DNA from: Paucibacter sp. KCTC 42545
Lineage (GTDB): Bacteria > Pseudomonadota > Gammaproteobacteria > Burkholderiales > Burkholderiaceae_C
NCBI RefSeq assembly: GCF_001477625.1
Contig: NZ_CP013692.1
Coordinates: 4,278,001 to 4,342,000, forward strand
Length of the DNA: 64,000 bases
Direction of reading: 5' to 3'
Shown here in pieces: positions 46,021-52,278 of the stretch. Both the position numbers and the translations under genes were made by a program. Every line of letters begins with the position of its first letter. The first letter of the stretch is position 1. The notes beneath the pieces are model-generated. The model was given only the letters and a program-made list of their open reading frames with translations. It was not told where the DNA came from and searched no databases.

Positions 46021-46079
46021 GACGCTCCCTTTCGGCGGCGAATTGAGCAATCAGTAGAACATTTTCATGTGTACAAATA

Positions 46080-46264
46080 TGTGCATAACTTTCGAACAAC
46101 TAGGGGCTTATCCACAGCGGCGGCGCGCGCGGCAAAGTTGTTATCTATTGGGCTCAAAGTTCAAGGGTATCCGCCCACATGCTTTGTCAGCAGCTAAGTC
46201 CTTGCCAGAACAGGCAAAATACGGCTTGTCCACAGCAAGGGCCGTCCCCTACTAAGACTACTAA
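46080..46264 (+). other. Origin-like element, copy A: DnaA boxes plus DnaA-trio-like 16-mer
   Basis: Non-coding, in the 357-bp gap between egtD and the QueD-like gene. It has a reverse DnaA box with one mismatch (TGTGCATAA, 46080-46088), a perfect box TTATCCACA (46108-46116), a near box TTGTCCACA (46226-46234), 14 GC-rich bases, then CTACTAAGACTACTAA (46249-46264) followed by the A+T-rich AACAAAGTATTTAAAGATAC. The same parts occur with the same spacing at 51678-51863. Order and content match the bacterial unwinding module (DnaA boxes, GC cluster, DnaA-trio), but copy A is the diverged copy. Confidence 0.7.
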
Positions 46265-46377
46265 CAAAGTATTTAAAGATACTGTTAAAGACAGAGCGAA
46301 GCTCAAAAGTGCTTTTGTTGGGATTGCGTTGCACCCCTGCCCCAAGGCGGGCCAGCCATGTCACACTTGCGTCCCCG

Positions 46378-47484
46378 ATGAAAACCCTGACTATTTTTTC
46401 CGCCTCCTGCGGTTTCGAATCCGCCTGCCAGATCACGGCCTTGCCCGTCGGACATCGCAGCCATGGTCTGCATGGCCACAGCTATTTCGCCACCGTGCGT
46501 GCCGAACTGCCTGCCGACTGGGCGCCTTTTCCGGGCGGAGAGGTCGAAGAATTGCGCAAGCGCCTGGAGGCCTGCGTTGAACCGCTGGACCACGCGCTGC
46601 TGAACCGCTGCGTGGAAGAGCCCACCGACGAAAACATCGCCCGCTGGATCCGCCAGCGCCTGGAAACCGAGTTTGGCGTACCCGGCATCCAGCAGATCGG
46701 GATTCAAAGCACCCAGCATTCGGGTGTGGATCTGGATGCCAATGGCTCCGCCCATGTCTGGCGCCGCTACCGCTTTCAAGCTGCGCACCAATTGCCCAAT
46801 GTGCCCATGGGTCACAAATGCGGCCGCATGCATGGCCATGGTTTCGAGGTCATCATCCACGCCAACCAAGACCTGGGTGAGCGGGCGCTGAGCATCGACT
46901 ACGACCATCTGGACGAGGTCTGGGCGCCCTGGCACATGCTGCTCAACTACCAATGCTTGAATAGCATTGAGGGTTTGCACAATCCGACCAGCGAGGTGAT
47001 TTCGGCCTGGTTGTGGGCGGGTTTGAAGCCGGTGCTGCCCGAGTTGTCCTGGATCACGGTGTACGAAACCGGTTCTTGCGGCGCAAATTTCGACGGCACG
47101 AACTACCGCATCTGGAAAGAATTGACGCTGGACAGCGCGATTCAGCTCAAGCGAGCGCCCACTGACAGCCCGCTGCGTGGCATCCACGGCCACACCTACA
47201 CCCTGCGCCTGCACCTGAGTGCCGAGTTGGACAAGGTGCAAGGCTGGACGGTGGATTTCGGCGATGTGAAGACCTTGTTCGATCCCATCTTCAAGGCCAT
47301 CGATCACCGCCCGCTGTACGAGATTGCCGACTTGCCCGATGGTGACACCGCCAGCCTAGCCGCCTGGGTGCTGGCCAAGGGGGCTGCGGTGTTGCCGCAG
47401 ATCGACCGGGTCGATATGTACGAAACGCGTGGCTGTGGCTCCATCGTCAGCAGCAGCGGTGATGAGGCTTTGATTCCGGTATGA
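46378..47484 (+). CDS. queD: 6-carboxytetrahydropterin synthase (QueD) family protein with three tandem domains
   Basis: Product of 368 residues, about three times a normal QueD (about 120-140). Domain 1 (about 1-125) has HGH at 32-34, LDH and PTDEN but Ser at the usual catalytic Cys position (GHRSHGLHGH). Domain 2 (about 127-250) keeps Cys148 in GHKCGRMHGH and PTSE but lacks the DH motif. Domain 3 (about 250-365) has GIHGHTYTL and DFGDVKTLFD ... AIDHRPLY but no Cys. QueD makes 6-carboxytetrahydropterin for queuosine. The stop codon overlaps queE (ATGA), confirming the pathway. The start 46378 follows CACACTTGCGTCCCCG, a leader resembling that of the MazG-like gene. Confidence 0.85.
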   Translation: MKTLTIFSASCGFESACQITALPVGHRSHGLHGHSYFATVRAELPADWAPFPGGEVEELRKRLEACVEPLDHALLNRCVEEPTDENIARWIRQRLETEFGVPGIQQIGIQSTQHSGVDLDANGSAHVWRRYRFQAAHQLPNVPMGHKCGRMHGHGFEVIIHANQDLGERALSIDYDHLDEVWAPWHMLLNYQCLNSIEGLHNPTSEVISAWLWAGLKPVLPELSWITVYETGSCGANFDGTNYRIWKELTLDSAIQLKRAPTDSPLRGIHGHTYTLRLHLSAELDKVQGWTVDFGDVKTLFDPIFKAIDHRPLYEIADLPDGDTASLAAWVLAKGAAVLPQIDRVDMYETRGCGSIVSSSGDEALIPV

Positions 47485-48116
47485 CCTACGCTGTCAAAGA
47501 AATCTTCTACACCTTGCAAGGCGAGGGCGCACAGGCGGGCCGGGCCTCGGTGTTCTGCCGCTTTGCCGGCTGCAATCTGTGGAGTGGCCGCGAGCAAGAC
47601 CGCGCCGAGGCAGTTTGCAGTTTCTGCGATACCGATTTTGTGGGCGTGGACGGCCAAGGCGGCGGCAAGTTCGCCAGCGCGGCCGATCTGGCCGAGGCTG
47701 TTGCGGCGCAGTGGCCGAGCGGCATGCCCGGCAAGCCTTATGTGGTGTGCACCGGCGGCGAGCCGCTGCTGCAGCTGGATGCCGGACTGATTGCCGCCCT
47801 GCATGCCAAAGGCTTCGAGATTGCGGTGGAAACCAATGGCACCCAGCCTGCGCCCGAGGGCCTGGACTGGATTTGTGTCAGCCCCAAGGCTGACGCCGAA
47901 ATCGTGCTGACCAAGGGTCACGAGCTGAAGCTGGTTTATCCACAGCCTTTGGCCAAACCGGAACGCTTCGAGTCAATGGACTTCGAACACTTCTTTTTGC
48001 AGCCGCTGGATTCCATCCTGAAAACCCAGCACACCCGCGAAGCGGTGGCTTATTGCATGAGCCACCCGCAGTGGCGGCTATCGGTGCAGATGCACAAGGT
48101 CATCGGCATCGAATAA
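47481..48116 (+). CDS. queE: 7-carboxy-7-deazaguanine synthase QueE
   Basis: Product of 211 residues, a small radical SAM enzyme with the modified cluster motif C-x14-C-x2-C (GCNLWSG ... AVCSFCDTDF), GGEPLLQ and VETNGTQP. It converts the QueD product to 7-carboxy-7-deazaguanine. The start overlaps the queD stop. A perfect DnaA box (TTATCCACA, 47936-47944) lies inside the gene, between the two origin-like elements; by chance or not is unknown. Confidence 0.95.
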   Translation: MTYAVKEIFYTLQGEGAQAGRASVFCRFAGCNLWSGREQDRAEAVCSFCDTDFVGVDGQGGGKFASAADLAEAVAAQWPSGMPGKPYVVCTGGEPLLQLDAGLIAALHAKGFEIAVETNGTQPAPEGLDWICVSPKADAEIVLTKGHELKLVYPQPLAKPERFESMDFEHFFLQPLDSILKTQHTREAVAYCMSHPQWRLSVQMHKVIGIE

Positions 48117-48169: not shown

Positions 48170-49495
48170 TCAGATCGTCTTGGGCAAATGTGCGTCGACT
48201 CGGTCGAGCACCACTTCCGGCGCATCGGCCTCCAGCGGTCCTTCGTTGTTGAGCTGGCTGTGAAGCCGTTCCATATCCAGGTCACCGGTCCATTTGGCGA
48301 CCACCAGGGTGGCCACACCATTGCCAATCAGATTGGTCAGGGCGCGCGCCTCGCTCATGAAGCGGTCGATGCCCAGAATCAGCGCCAGGCCTGCCACCGG
48401 CACGCCGCCCACGGCGCTGAGTGTGGCTGCCAGCACAATGAAGCCACTGCCGGTCACGCCTGCGGCGCCCTTGGAGGTCAGCAACAAGACCGCCAAGAGG
48501 GTCAGTTGTTGCGTCAAAGTCATCGGTGTGTTGGTGGCTTGGGCAATGAAGACGGCGGCCATGGTCAGGTAGATGGAGGTTCCATCCAGATTGAAGGAAT
48601 AGCCAGTCGGGATCACCAGGCCCACGGTGGACTTCTTGGCGCCCAGGTTTTCCATCTTGGCCATCATGCGCGGCAGCACCGACTCGGACGATGAGGTGCC
48701 CAGCACGATCAACAGTTCTTCCTTGATGTACTTGATGAACTTCCAGATCGAGAAACCGTGGAAACGCGCGATGCTGCCCAGCACGATGAAGATGAACATC
48801 AAGCAGGTCAGATAGAAGCTGCCCATCAACTTGCCCAGTTGCACCAGCGAGCCCAGGCCGTATTTGCCGATGGTGAAAGCCATGGCACCGAAAGCGCCGA
48901 TGGGCGCCAGCTTCATGATCATGCCAACGATGGCGAAGAGCACATGCGAGGTCTTTTCGATCATGTCGAACACCAGGGTGCCGCGGCCGCCGAACTGGTG
49001 CAGAGCAAAGCCGAACATCACCGCAATCAAGAGCACTTGCAACATCTCGCCTTTGGCAAAGGCATCGACCAGGGTGGTGGGGATGATGGCCAGCAAAAAG
49101 TCCGTCGTGCTGGCCAGTTTGCCGGGGCCGGTATAGGCGGCAATGCCCTTGGTGTCGAGCGCGGCGGGGTCCACATTCATGCCCGCACCGGGTTGCAGAA
49201 CGTTGACCACCACCAGGCCAATGACCAGGGCGATGGTGGACACGATTTCAAAGTAAAGCAGGGCCAGGCCGCCGGTCTTGCCGACCTTTTTCATATCCTC
49301 CATGCCGGCAATGCCGACCACCACGGTGCAGAAGATGATGGGGGCAATGATCATCTTGATCAGCTTGATGAAGCCGTCTCCCAAGGGTTTCATGGCGGCG
49401 CCACTCTCGGGATAGAAATGGCCCAGCAGCACACCCAGCACGATGGCGGTGATGACCTGGAAATAGAGGGATTTGTAAAACGGTTTGGCGCTCAA
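48170..49495 (-). CDS. dctA: DctA-type C4-dicarboxylate/H+ or Na+ symporter
   Basis: Product of 441 residues of the DAACS family with eight membrane helices and two hairpins. Motifs are [40 protein letters not shown] and [13 protein letters not shown]. It imports succinate, fumarate, malate or related acids. The start is TTG 49495, six bases after AGGAG and directly before [17 protein letters not shown]; a longer reading to 49576 would bypass this site. The adjacent gene on the same strand is ompW. Confidence 0.92.
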
Positions 49496-49574
49496 GGCGG
49501 TCTCCTGGCGAATTTGCTCCGATCTTGCGCCCGCGATGGAGTGACGCCTATAAGGGGTTTTGCAGACAAGAGGC

Positions 49575-50323: not shown

Positions 50324-51472
50324 TTACAGCCAACCCTTGATGGCCAAGGTCTTGGAGATCAGCTGACCGGTCAGCTGATGCCCGTAGGGCGTGGGGTGGA
50401 AGCCGTCTGAAAAGCCATAGCTCTTCCACCAGTCGGCGCCGCCGACAGCACCCGCAGGCGGTGCGGCCGACAAAGCGGTGGCGGTGCAGGTCGGGAAGTT
50501 GTAGGTGGGCAAGCCATCGCTGCCCAGGCCGGTGATTGGGCAGGCGGGCGTCTTCACATTGCTCAGGCCAAACTGCTCTTTATTGCTGACCTGGTCATTG
50601 AAGGCCGTGTAGAAATCAACCACAGCAACCTTGGCTTCACCGGAAAACTTGGCCGCCAATTGCTTGTTGAAGGCTTCAATCCAACTCTTGAACAGCGCTT
50701 CGGATTGCGCTCTCGCGGTGGCACCGGCCGTGCCGCCACCGTAGGCGGCCGAGATGCCATCCAGCACCATCTGGAAGCGTGGCGTGTTGGTGATGCCAGG
50801 CATATTCAGCACGATGACTTGCTGGGCGCCCTTGTCCAACACGCTGGTCTTGATGGCGGCGTAGAAGTTGTCGGCCAGCGCGGTCATATAGACCCCGCCA
50901 ATGCTTGCCATGCCGGCGGCACCGCCAGCCAAGGCTGCGCCGACTTGTGCAGGCGTCAAAACGGTTGTCAACAGACCGGCATAAGTAGCGGCCTTGTCAC
51001 CGGGCGCTTTTAGGTAAGCCCCCACCAGATCGGCCGCGTCATTGCCGCCGCCGTCAATCACAGCCAGATCGCCAGGTGCATAGGTACCCAAAGCTGCCAC
51101 TGCGGCCATCTGCACGGTAATACCGCGCGGATCCGTGGGGTTGCTGTAGTAGTTGATGCGCCCGCCGCCGATGGCGGCATTGGTGCAGCCCGCCTTAGGG
51201 TTGGGCACAAAGGAGTCAGGGCCCGTGGCTTTGTAAAAGCTGCACAGGGTTTGGCCATAGCTGGCGGCCACGCGCTCTGGGAAGATCAAGTTGTCCGCGC
51301 TTTGCACGGTGAACTTGTAGCCGTAGGTGCCTGAGTCAGCAATGCTGTCACCGAACACTTTGACGGCAGTGATCTTCAGCTTGGGCGAGGTGTCAGCTGT
51401 GCCGCCACCACCGCAGGCCGACAGGGCCAGGGCGGCCGCGATGGCCAGTGATTTGATTTGGAACCGGTTCAT
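50324..51472 (-). CDS. SGNH/GDSL-family esterase lipoprotein
   Basis: Product of 382 residues with lipobox LALSAC (Cys20 followed by GGGG) and SGNH blocks: FGDSIADSGTYGY (catalytic Ser), GGGRINYY, the GGGNDAADL block (Asn) and the C-terminal DGFHPTPYGHQ (Asp and His). Secreted or outer-membrane lipases and esterases of this type hydrolyse lipid or acyl esters. The leader GGAGACAAACA precedes ATG 51472. The 490-bp gap behind it holds origin-like copy B. Confidence 0.87.
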   Translation of the reverse strand: MNRFQIKSLAIAAALALSACGGGGTADTSPKLKITAVKVFGDSIADSGTYGYKFTVQSADNLIFPERVAASYGQTLCSFYKATGPDSFVPNPKAGCTNAAIGGGRINYYSNPTDPRGITVQMAAVAALGTYAPGDLAVIDGGGNDAADLVGAYLKAPGDKAATYAGLLTTVLTPAQVGAALAGGAAGMASIGGVYMTALADNFYAAIKTSVLDKGAQQVIVLNMPGITNTPRFQMVLDGISAAYGGGTAGATARAQSEALFKSWIEAFNKQLAAKFSGEAKVAVVDFYTAFNDQVSNKEQFGLSNVKTPACPITGLGSDGLPTYNFPTCTATALSAAPPAGAVGGADWWKSYGFSDGFHPTPYGHQLTGQLISKTLAIKGWL

Positions 51473-51677
51473 TGTTTGTCTCCGTCAAGTGCTTCAGGCT
51501 GGGGTCCGTCCGGAACTCTAGGCAATAGTGCGAATACTGGCGCTGCGTGTTTGCCCCCGCCTGTGGCGCAAAAAGTGCTGATTTGCACTGTATTGGGGCT
51601 AAATTCGTTAAAAAAATCACGGTGAAAGCCGCCATTTTTCAAACCTAGCCCAATGGACGGCTGTCAAGGCACAAGTT

Positions 51678-51863
51678 TGTGGATAAAAAAAGGATAGCCA
51701 GGCACTTATCCACAGGCCGAGGCCGAAGTTCAGACTTGTTATCGTTTCACGCGCAAGTTCACCCGCCCTCCACCCACATGGTTTTAGCAGCGCTAACTTC
51801 TTGTCAGAAAAGTAGAAATTGCACTTATCCACAGAAAAGCTCGCCCTCTACTAAGACTACTAA
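51678..51863 (+). other. Origin-like element, copy B: three perfect DnaA boxes plus DnaA-trio-like 16-mer
   Basis: Non-coding, between the SGNH esterase and the MazG-like gene. It holds three consensus DnaA boxes: reverse TGTGGATAA (51678-51686), TTATCCACA (51706-51714) and TTATCCACA (51825-51833). The third is followed after 14 bases by CTACTAAGACTACTAA (51848-51863) and then A+T-rich TTTCAAATATGAAAAC. Spacings are 28, 119 and 23 bp between element starts, against 28, 118 and 23 in copy A at 46080. This is the better preserved copy. The rest of the gap (51473-51677) holds nothing else recognised. Confidence 0.75.
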
Positions 51864-51963
51864 TTTCAAATATGAAAACAAGATGAATACAGGTGCGGAA
51901 CAAGAATTTTGAGAATGCACACTTTGCCTTTCTGCCTGCCAAGGCGTGCCACACTTGCATCCC

Positions 51964-52278
51964 ATGGACATCGTAGTACTGCAAAAGCGGCTTCGCCAAT
52001 TCGCGCTGGAGCGGCATTGGCAGCCTTACCAAACCCCCAAGAATCTGGCGATGGCCATGGTGGTGGAAGCCGCTGAGCTGGTCGAAATTTTTCAGTGGAT
52101 GACGCCTGAGGAATCTGCGCAGATCGCGCAACGGCCTGAGCAACACCAGCATCTGGGCGAAGAGATCGCCGATGTGATGCTTTACCTGCTGCAAATTGCT
52201 GATCACAGCGGGGTGGATGTCGCCGCAGCGGTGGAGCGCAAGCTGGCGCTCAATGCGATCAAGTACCCGGTCGCCTGA
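51964..52278 (+). CDS. MazG-like nucleotide pyrophosphohydrolase
   Basis: Product of 104 residues with the all-alpha NTP pyrophosphohydrolase motifs EAAELVEIFQWM and EEIADVMLYLLQIAD, close to the RS21-C6/dCTPase group. These proteins remove non-canonical or excess dNTPs. The ATG at 51964 fits the family length; it follows CACACTTGCATCCC, resembling the leader of the QueD-like gene behind origin-like copy A. The exonuclease gene starts 31 bp downstream. Confidence 0.9.
   Translation: MDIVVLQKRLRQFALERHWQPYQTPKNLAMAMVVEAAELVEIFQWMTPEESAQIAQRPEQHQHLGEEIADVMLYLLQIADHSGVDVAAAVERKLALNAIKYPVA

Follow-up and report, generated by a model that had tools for sequence, protein, structure and literature searches.

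A stretch of 64,000 nucleotides from the chromosome of Paucibacter sp. KCTC 42545 (contig NZ_CP013692.1, here G000:C1, positions 4278001-4342000; the genome is one contig of 5,169,161 bp), referred to throughout as the window, very probably holds the replication origin of this chromosome. As read from its sequence, the origin would comprise two complete oriC modules, elements A and B, which were anciently duplicated and lie detached from dnaA. The position of the pair at the skew switch, its conservation, and its homology to elements found between dnaA and dnaN in relatives together argue for a real oriC that has left dnaA and been kept in duplicate. An earlier note on this DNA had offered element B as an origin, a second origin, or a DnaA-titrating or regulatory site; of these options the chromosomal origin is the best supported. 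What that note lacked was that A and B appear to be two copies of one module, forming a conserved pair in most of the genus.

Chromosomal position and anatomy of elements A and B

GC skew was surveyed over 400 contiguous kb (4.10-4.50 Mb) and in 20 further 20-kb samples of the chromosome. The cumulative G-C minimum of the contiguous region fell at 4324873 (window 46873), between A and B, and all eight samples from 2.08 to 3.90 Mb were negative, the other 12 being positive. A two-segment fit placed the change point of GC skew at 4325001 (window 47001; likelihood range 4322.5-4327.5 kb, block bootstrap 4308-4337 kb), with A inside the likelihood range, B 2 kb outside it, and both inside the bootstrap range. 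The penalty for moving the switch (twice the difference in log likelihood, 2dlogL) was 2.9 for A, 7.5 for B and 49.8 for dnaA, by which dnaA was strongly rejected as the skew switch. The inversion that the earlier note had proposed to look for is therefore here and not at dnaA. The change point of G+T skew was also 4325001, with penalties that hardly separate A from B (2.5 and 2.9), and that of T-A skew was 4328001 (A: 2.8; B: 0.6; bootstrap wide, 4277-4377 kb). Thus GC skew favours A over B, and G+T and T-A skew do not decide between them. Three parS-like sites (≤2 mismatches) were found, all at 4353004-4354159, 23-30 kb off the elements.

As had been noticed before, the 64-kb window contains no dnaA gene: the DnaA-domain match of dnaA lies at G000:C1:4227360-4227839, approximately 102 kb to the left of B. 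Scanning the surroundings of dnaA (4220001-4240000) with the profile returned nothing at E 10, and the 125-bp gap between dnaA and dnaN of this genome held no DnaA box at ≤2 mismatches. Directly upstream of dnaA (L001 892-960) there is one perfect and one near-perfect DnaA box, without CTACTA; these boxes possibly serve dnaA autoregulation. Of the features by which an oriC is recognized, the pair shows an intergenic cluster of DnaA boxes (both A and B are intergenic), a switch in cumulative GC skew and homology to a dnaA-side oriC in relatives; it is not beside dnaA in the same genome, from which it is 96-102 kb away. A place beside dnaA is usual for oriC and not required, according to the available part of PMC10225481.

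Across the whole genome, A and B were the sole matches both in a DNA search with B and with profile R1, a sequence profile built from 29 aligned copies of the element (E 0.01). The three perfect DnaA boxes that the earlier note had assigned to B were confirmed, as were the 16-mer CTACTAAGACTACTAA and the A+T-rich DNA that follows it (Table 1). The spacer between them is indeed 14 bp long, though calling it GC-rich was an overstatement for B, where its G+C content does not exceed that of the surroundings; the spacer of A, also 14 bp, has 11/14 G+C. Element A repeats the order of parts in B: reverse box 1, box 2, box 3, 14-bp spacer, 16-mer and A+T-rich DNA. In B the region from the 16-mer onwards (51848-51910) is 70% A+T, and the peak right behind the 16-mer (72% in 50 bp) is equalled at 0.03% of window positions. 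Five perfect DnaA boxes occur in the window against a shuffle mean of 0.14, a count reached in 0 of 100 shuffles, and a relaxed 16-mer pattern (≤2 mismatches) matched the window only in elements A and B (shuffle mean 0.01).

Table 1. Positions (in window coordinates) of the parts of elements A and B and of the neighbouring genes.
Feature	Position	Strand	Remarks
Element B, putative complete oriC module	51669..51878	+	profile R1 match 4329669-4329878, E 3.9e-42; B copy present in 16/18 same-genus genomes (own included)
Element B core, first box through 16-mer	51678-51863		
B box 1, TTATCCACA	51678..51686	-	perfect DnaA box; mismatch-free in 16/16 B copies
B box 2	51706..51714	+	perfect DnaA box; perfect in 15/16 B copies
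B inner block ACTTGTTATC	51734..51743	+	conserved; alignment columns 67-76
B inner block ACCCACA	51772..51778	+	alignment columns 105-111, identity 0.86
B box 3, trio-proximal	51825..51833	+	perfect DnaA box; perfect in 12/16 B copies, one mismatch in 4/16
B spacer, box 3 to trio	51834..51847	+	14 bp, 8/14 G+C (57%); same length in 29/29 aligned copies
B split DnaA-trio-like motif CTACTAAGACTACTAA	51848..51863	+	CTA CTA AGA CTA CTA A; mean identity 0.93, 16 B copies
B A+T-rich stretch	51864..51910	+	probable unwinding region
Element A, putative second complete oriC module	46071..46276	+	profile R1 match 4324071-4324276, E 2.0e-39; aligns to B
Element A core	46080-46264		diverged full copy of B, 5.6 kb from B, same orientation
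A box 1, TTATGCACA	46080..46088	-	one mismatch
A box 2	46108..46116	+	perfect DnaA box
A box 3, TTGTCCACA	46226..46234	+	one mismatch
A trio-like motif CTACTAAGACTACTAA	46249..46264	+	identical to B motif
A+T-rich stretch behind A trio	46265..46311	+	46249-46311 is 67% A+T
QueD-family gene	46378..47484	+	downstream of A; TIGR03367, E 2.7e-42
queE	47481..48116	+	TIGR04508, E 1e-109
dctA-like transporter gene	48170..49501	-	between the copies; NF002461, E 2.5e-219
GDSL-lipase-like gene	50324..51472	-	upstream of B; weak NCBIfam matches below cut-off
Small gene	51964..52278	+	downstream of B

Conservation in the genus and the family

The same-genus set consisted of 18 genomes, the genome under study and 17 relatives. 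A BLASTN search with B matched all 17 relatives; in 21 other genera, each represented by one genome, it matched nothing. Scored with the profile at E 0.01, 13 of the 18 genomes (own included) carried two copies and three (G013, G016 and G017) a copy at the B place only; in these three the A place is closed, the matches to the neighbouring helicase gene and to queD lying 21 bases apart. Where one contig carries both copies (11 genomes), they always share the same orientation and are separated by 2-7 kb; in G009 and G010 the two copies are on different contigs. Box order, the conservation of which the earlier note had asked about, is kept in relatives together with the spacing: in 29 of 29 aligned copies, the basis of the spacing comparison, the distances are box 1-28-box 2-119 (B) or 118 (A)-box 3-23-trio. 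Mean pairwise identity, calculated for 16 B copies and 11 A copies (excluding G002 and G014) from the genus, was 0.96-1.00 for the boxes and 0.93 for the trio of B against 0.53 in its unassigned columns, and 0.76-0.94 for the boxes and 0.80 for the trio of A against 0.55 in unassigned columns. The ACTTGTTATC block of B reached 0.82, and the ACCCACA block is possibly a weak DnaA site. In 10 of the 11 A copies box 3 carries a single mismatch, and box 1 of A carries up to four.

A tree built from 84 elements brought the 16 B copies of the genus together (support 50) and placed 12 of the 13 A copies of the genus in a second group (support 39), the exception being that of G014. Copies at the B place in three other genera (G066, G148 and G099) joined the same-genus B group, while those of G040, G159, G060, G185, G109 and G213 fell outside it. 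This suggests that the duplication into A and B is older than the genus, with weak supporting nodes and six further B-place copies elsewhere in the tree. Support for the deep nodes was weak, many of them at 33-60, so that the tree does not fix how many duplications took place in the family.

At the family level, in a draw of 200 genomes, the profile matched 189, of which 62 had at least two matches at E 0.01. In a draw of 150 from the order it matched 33, where four were family members and most of the other matches were weak. Among the 24 one-contig genomes of the family draw (own included), the element lay within approximately 2 kb of dnaA in 10 and more than 10 kb away in 14; if the element marks the origin, the rule that oriC is beside dnaA fails in these 14. 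At least two copies were found in 1 of the 10 dnaA-adjacent genomes versus 10 of the 14 displaced ones (Fisher P = 0.0045, kinship ignored). Neighbourhoods were viewed in 33 genomes outside the genus, chosen as the better-scoring or paired ones and not as a random draw, and in seven (G044, G065, G094, G106, G166, G190 and G205) the element lies between dnaA and dnaN. Three of these show two origin modules side by side between the two genes (L168 7200-7685 in G190, L170 7020-7537 in G205 and L169 7409-7924 in G094), those of G190 in opposite orientation. A search for the 16-mer beside dnaA, another check proposed earlier, succeeded in a relative, a Rhizobacter metagenome-assembled genome (contig JANYJL010000055.1, L034) with an identical 16-mer between dnaA and dnaN; in the genome under study the profile scan around dnaA was empty. 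Like our elements, the Rhizobacter oriC has an upstream box, the inner blocks, box 3, the 14-bp spacer, CTACTAAGACTACTAA and A+T-rich DNA. In contrast to the dnaA-adjacent oriC of the family (a single copy beside dnaA in 9 of 10), there are two copies here, and far from dnaA. Skew was examined over 200 kb in each of four displaced relatives, and in two of these (G107 and G021) its minimum fell 4.4 and 0.2 kb from a copy.

The box and 16-mer also occur together outside the phylum. In Limosilactobacillus frumenti (L040 5732-5766) a perfect box, a 13-bp spacer and the 16-mer stand between dnaA and dnaN, and on two Chloroflexi contigs (L029 3632-3665 and L032 7436-7469) the 16-mer lies 12 bp behind a box-like sequence, amid five box-like words; no dnaA was found in the 8 kb examined of each Chloroflexi contig. 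These occurrences independently support the reading of box plus 16-mer as a probable part of an origin.

Several observations weigh against an origin at this pair. Two drafts of the genus (G002 and G014; 76 and 79% complete) show A only, on short contigs. G040 is an ambiguous case, with the low point of skew 61 kb away from the copies and the start of the sustained rise beside them, and the single displaced copy of G047 was not supported by skew. A backward-read control for parS also gave one forward and one reverse match, one site's worth, and GGGNAGGG shows strand bias on the right side of the pair (27 to 4) and none on the left side (18 to 16). A 24-letter dif pattern (≤3 mismatches) was without match in the genome, and the terminus was thus not located by dif. 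Finally, the trio-like motif has a run of two triplets in all 16 same-genus B copies, below the three of the published rule (at least three motifs 3'-NAN-5' in the available part of PMC8287927, read here as three consecutive triplets). Its consensus, CTA CTA NGA CTA CYA, has two good triplets, one without a central A on the bound strand, and two more. A run of three was reached in 0 of 25 B-place, 4 of 26 A-place, 5 of 9 dnaA-adjacent and 14 of 23 other copies, or 23 of 83 scored (1 of 84 was unscorable). By this rule the DnaA-trio of the earlier note is an imperfect match. The distance from DnaA box to trios in the basal unwinding system (BUS), at most 16 bp, compares with 14 bp here, and the 16-mer at the dnaA-dnaN place of L. 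frumenti suggests, by analogy, that the split form can work.

Start sites, competing explanations and known systems

Within the reading of A and B as the origin, B is predicted, with some confidence, to be the main start site and A a weaker second start site or a helper. Two points make B the probable main one: it has the better boxes, and the three single-copy genomes in which the A place was examined all carry B. The slightly better fit of GC skew to A speaks against this choice. DnaA would bind the inverted pair of boxes 1 and 2 as well as box 3, and DnaA gathered at boxes 1 and 2 may be delivered to box 3 by a DNA loop, as in Bacillus subtilis, where boxes distant from the trios are thought to deliver DnaA via a loop to the trio-proximal boxes (PMC6669920, in its available part). 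From box 3 a DnaA-ATP filament would form along the trio-like motif on one strand and melt the adjoining A+T-rich DNA, where the helicase would then be loaded. A bolder and tentative proposal is that most of the genus, and related genera with the queDE-MazG arrangement, have kept two complete origins within a few kilobases of each other since the origin moved away from dnaA, that both can fire, and that in the family detachment accompanies extra copies.

The role of A could also be different. It is possible, if unlikely, that B is the sole origin and that A is a DnaA-titrating or -reactivating site descended from an origin copy. datA and DARS are functional parallels for such sites. The weaker boxes of A, its more variable trio and its absence from three genomes would fit this explanation, whereas an identical trio and an A+T-rich stretch are not needed for titration, the trio of A is better conserved than its unassigned columns, and GC skew fits A better than B.

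It is likewise doubtful that A and B make up one bipartite origin in which DnaA pairs both across a 2-7 kb loop and only one melts. Two clusters at this distance and in the same orientation recur in the genus, and bipartite origins are known in B. subtilis and Helicobacter pylori (PMC4403523 and the available part of PMC6669920), with two DnaA-box clusters and one or more genes between them as here. However, according to the latter source in vitro unwinding of the known bipartite origins requires just one of the two parts, and each copy in the window has its own trio motif and A+T-rich stretch; measured against that source, both parts here look complete and dnaA is not between them. Furthermore, B stands alone in 3 of 18 genomes, and the distance between the copies varies freely.

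We regard it as very improbable that the elements are promoters through which DnaA regulates queD and the MazG-like gene, with the origin elsewhere. Each copy does lie shortly upstream of the same gene throughout the genus, but a fixed module of ~210 bp with a trio and an A+T-rich stretch is more than a promoter would need, the same module occurs between dnaA and dnaN in other genera, and the skew switch and the parS-like sites are at odds with a pure promoter function, which was rejected. A chance cluster of DnaA-box-like words, in favour of which no point was found, was rejected as practically nil on the shuffle counts and the exact spacing in 29 aligned copies.

Returning to the reading of A and B as a duplicated oriC, one close described counterpart is the BUS of B. 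subtilis incC, which in the available parts of PMC8287927 and PMC6669920 consists of upstream DnaA boxes, a trio-proximal box, a spacer and trios of consensus 3'-GAT-5'. Upstream boxes, a trio-proximal box, a spacer and trio repeats are all present in our elements; compared with that description, the trio here is broken by NGA after two triplets, there is one clear trio-proximal box versus two, and the elements are not beside dnaA. Putative double origins were described by Gao 2015 (PMC4403523), who also cites two replicating elements of P. aeruginosa and stated that evidence for the use of two functional origins by a single chromosome was then lacking. Those cases share with ours two origin-like loci on one chromosome; they concern single strains, with one or both loci beside a dnaA gene, or with loci 150-882 kb apart, whereas here the pair is 2-7 kb apart, off dnaA, and present in most of the genus. 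Single-chromosome strains of Vibrio cholerae with two origins were reported later (PMC6284228); in the available part of that account one of the two origins is of the oriC type and the other, with a different descent, of the plasmid type, whereas here there would be two copies of one oriC.

The class of origin is already known, and the paired, detached, genus-wide form is undescribed in the literature that we searched by titles and beginnings of abstracts, a scope outside which subscription papers and DoriC fall: no description of such a pair was found among those on two, duplicated or detached origins or on genera of the family. Bacterial chromosomes usually have a single origin. With a naturally conserved pair, and with species lacking one copy as ready controls, the firing of both copies and the role of the second become testable.

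Neighbouring genes and minor observations

Downstream of A, a QueD-family gene was seen in all 13 same-genus A copies whose neighbours were visible, and downstream of B the same small gene in 16 of 16 same-genus B copies. In the genus the gap is 28-173 bp from A to queD and 86-102 bp from B to the small gene, which had no match in an NCBIfam search and which we take to be MazG-like. The gene upstream of B is presumably GDSL-lipase-like, a label that is partly our assumption. The dctA-like gene that separates the two copies here does not do so in every relative. Three stretches of the QueD-family gene, which adjoins queE, match one QueD model, suggesting that it carries a duplicated domain. Rfam and tRNA scans of the window gave no matches.

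The fifth perfect box of the window, TTATCCACA at 47936-47944, lies within the queE coding sequence. A perfect box is present at the matching place in G015 and, within queE, in G004, a recurrence that is perhaps due to conserved protein sequence. Far from the origin, three perfect DnaA boxes on the minus strand fall within 506 bases (G000:C1:290097-290602), a possible DnaA-titrating or regulatory cluster.
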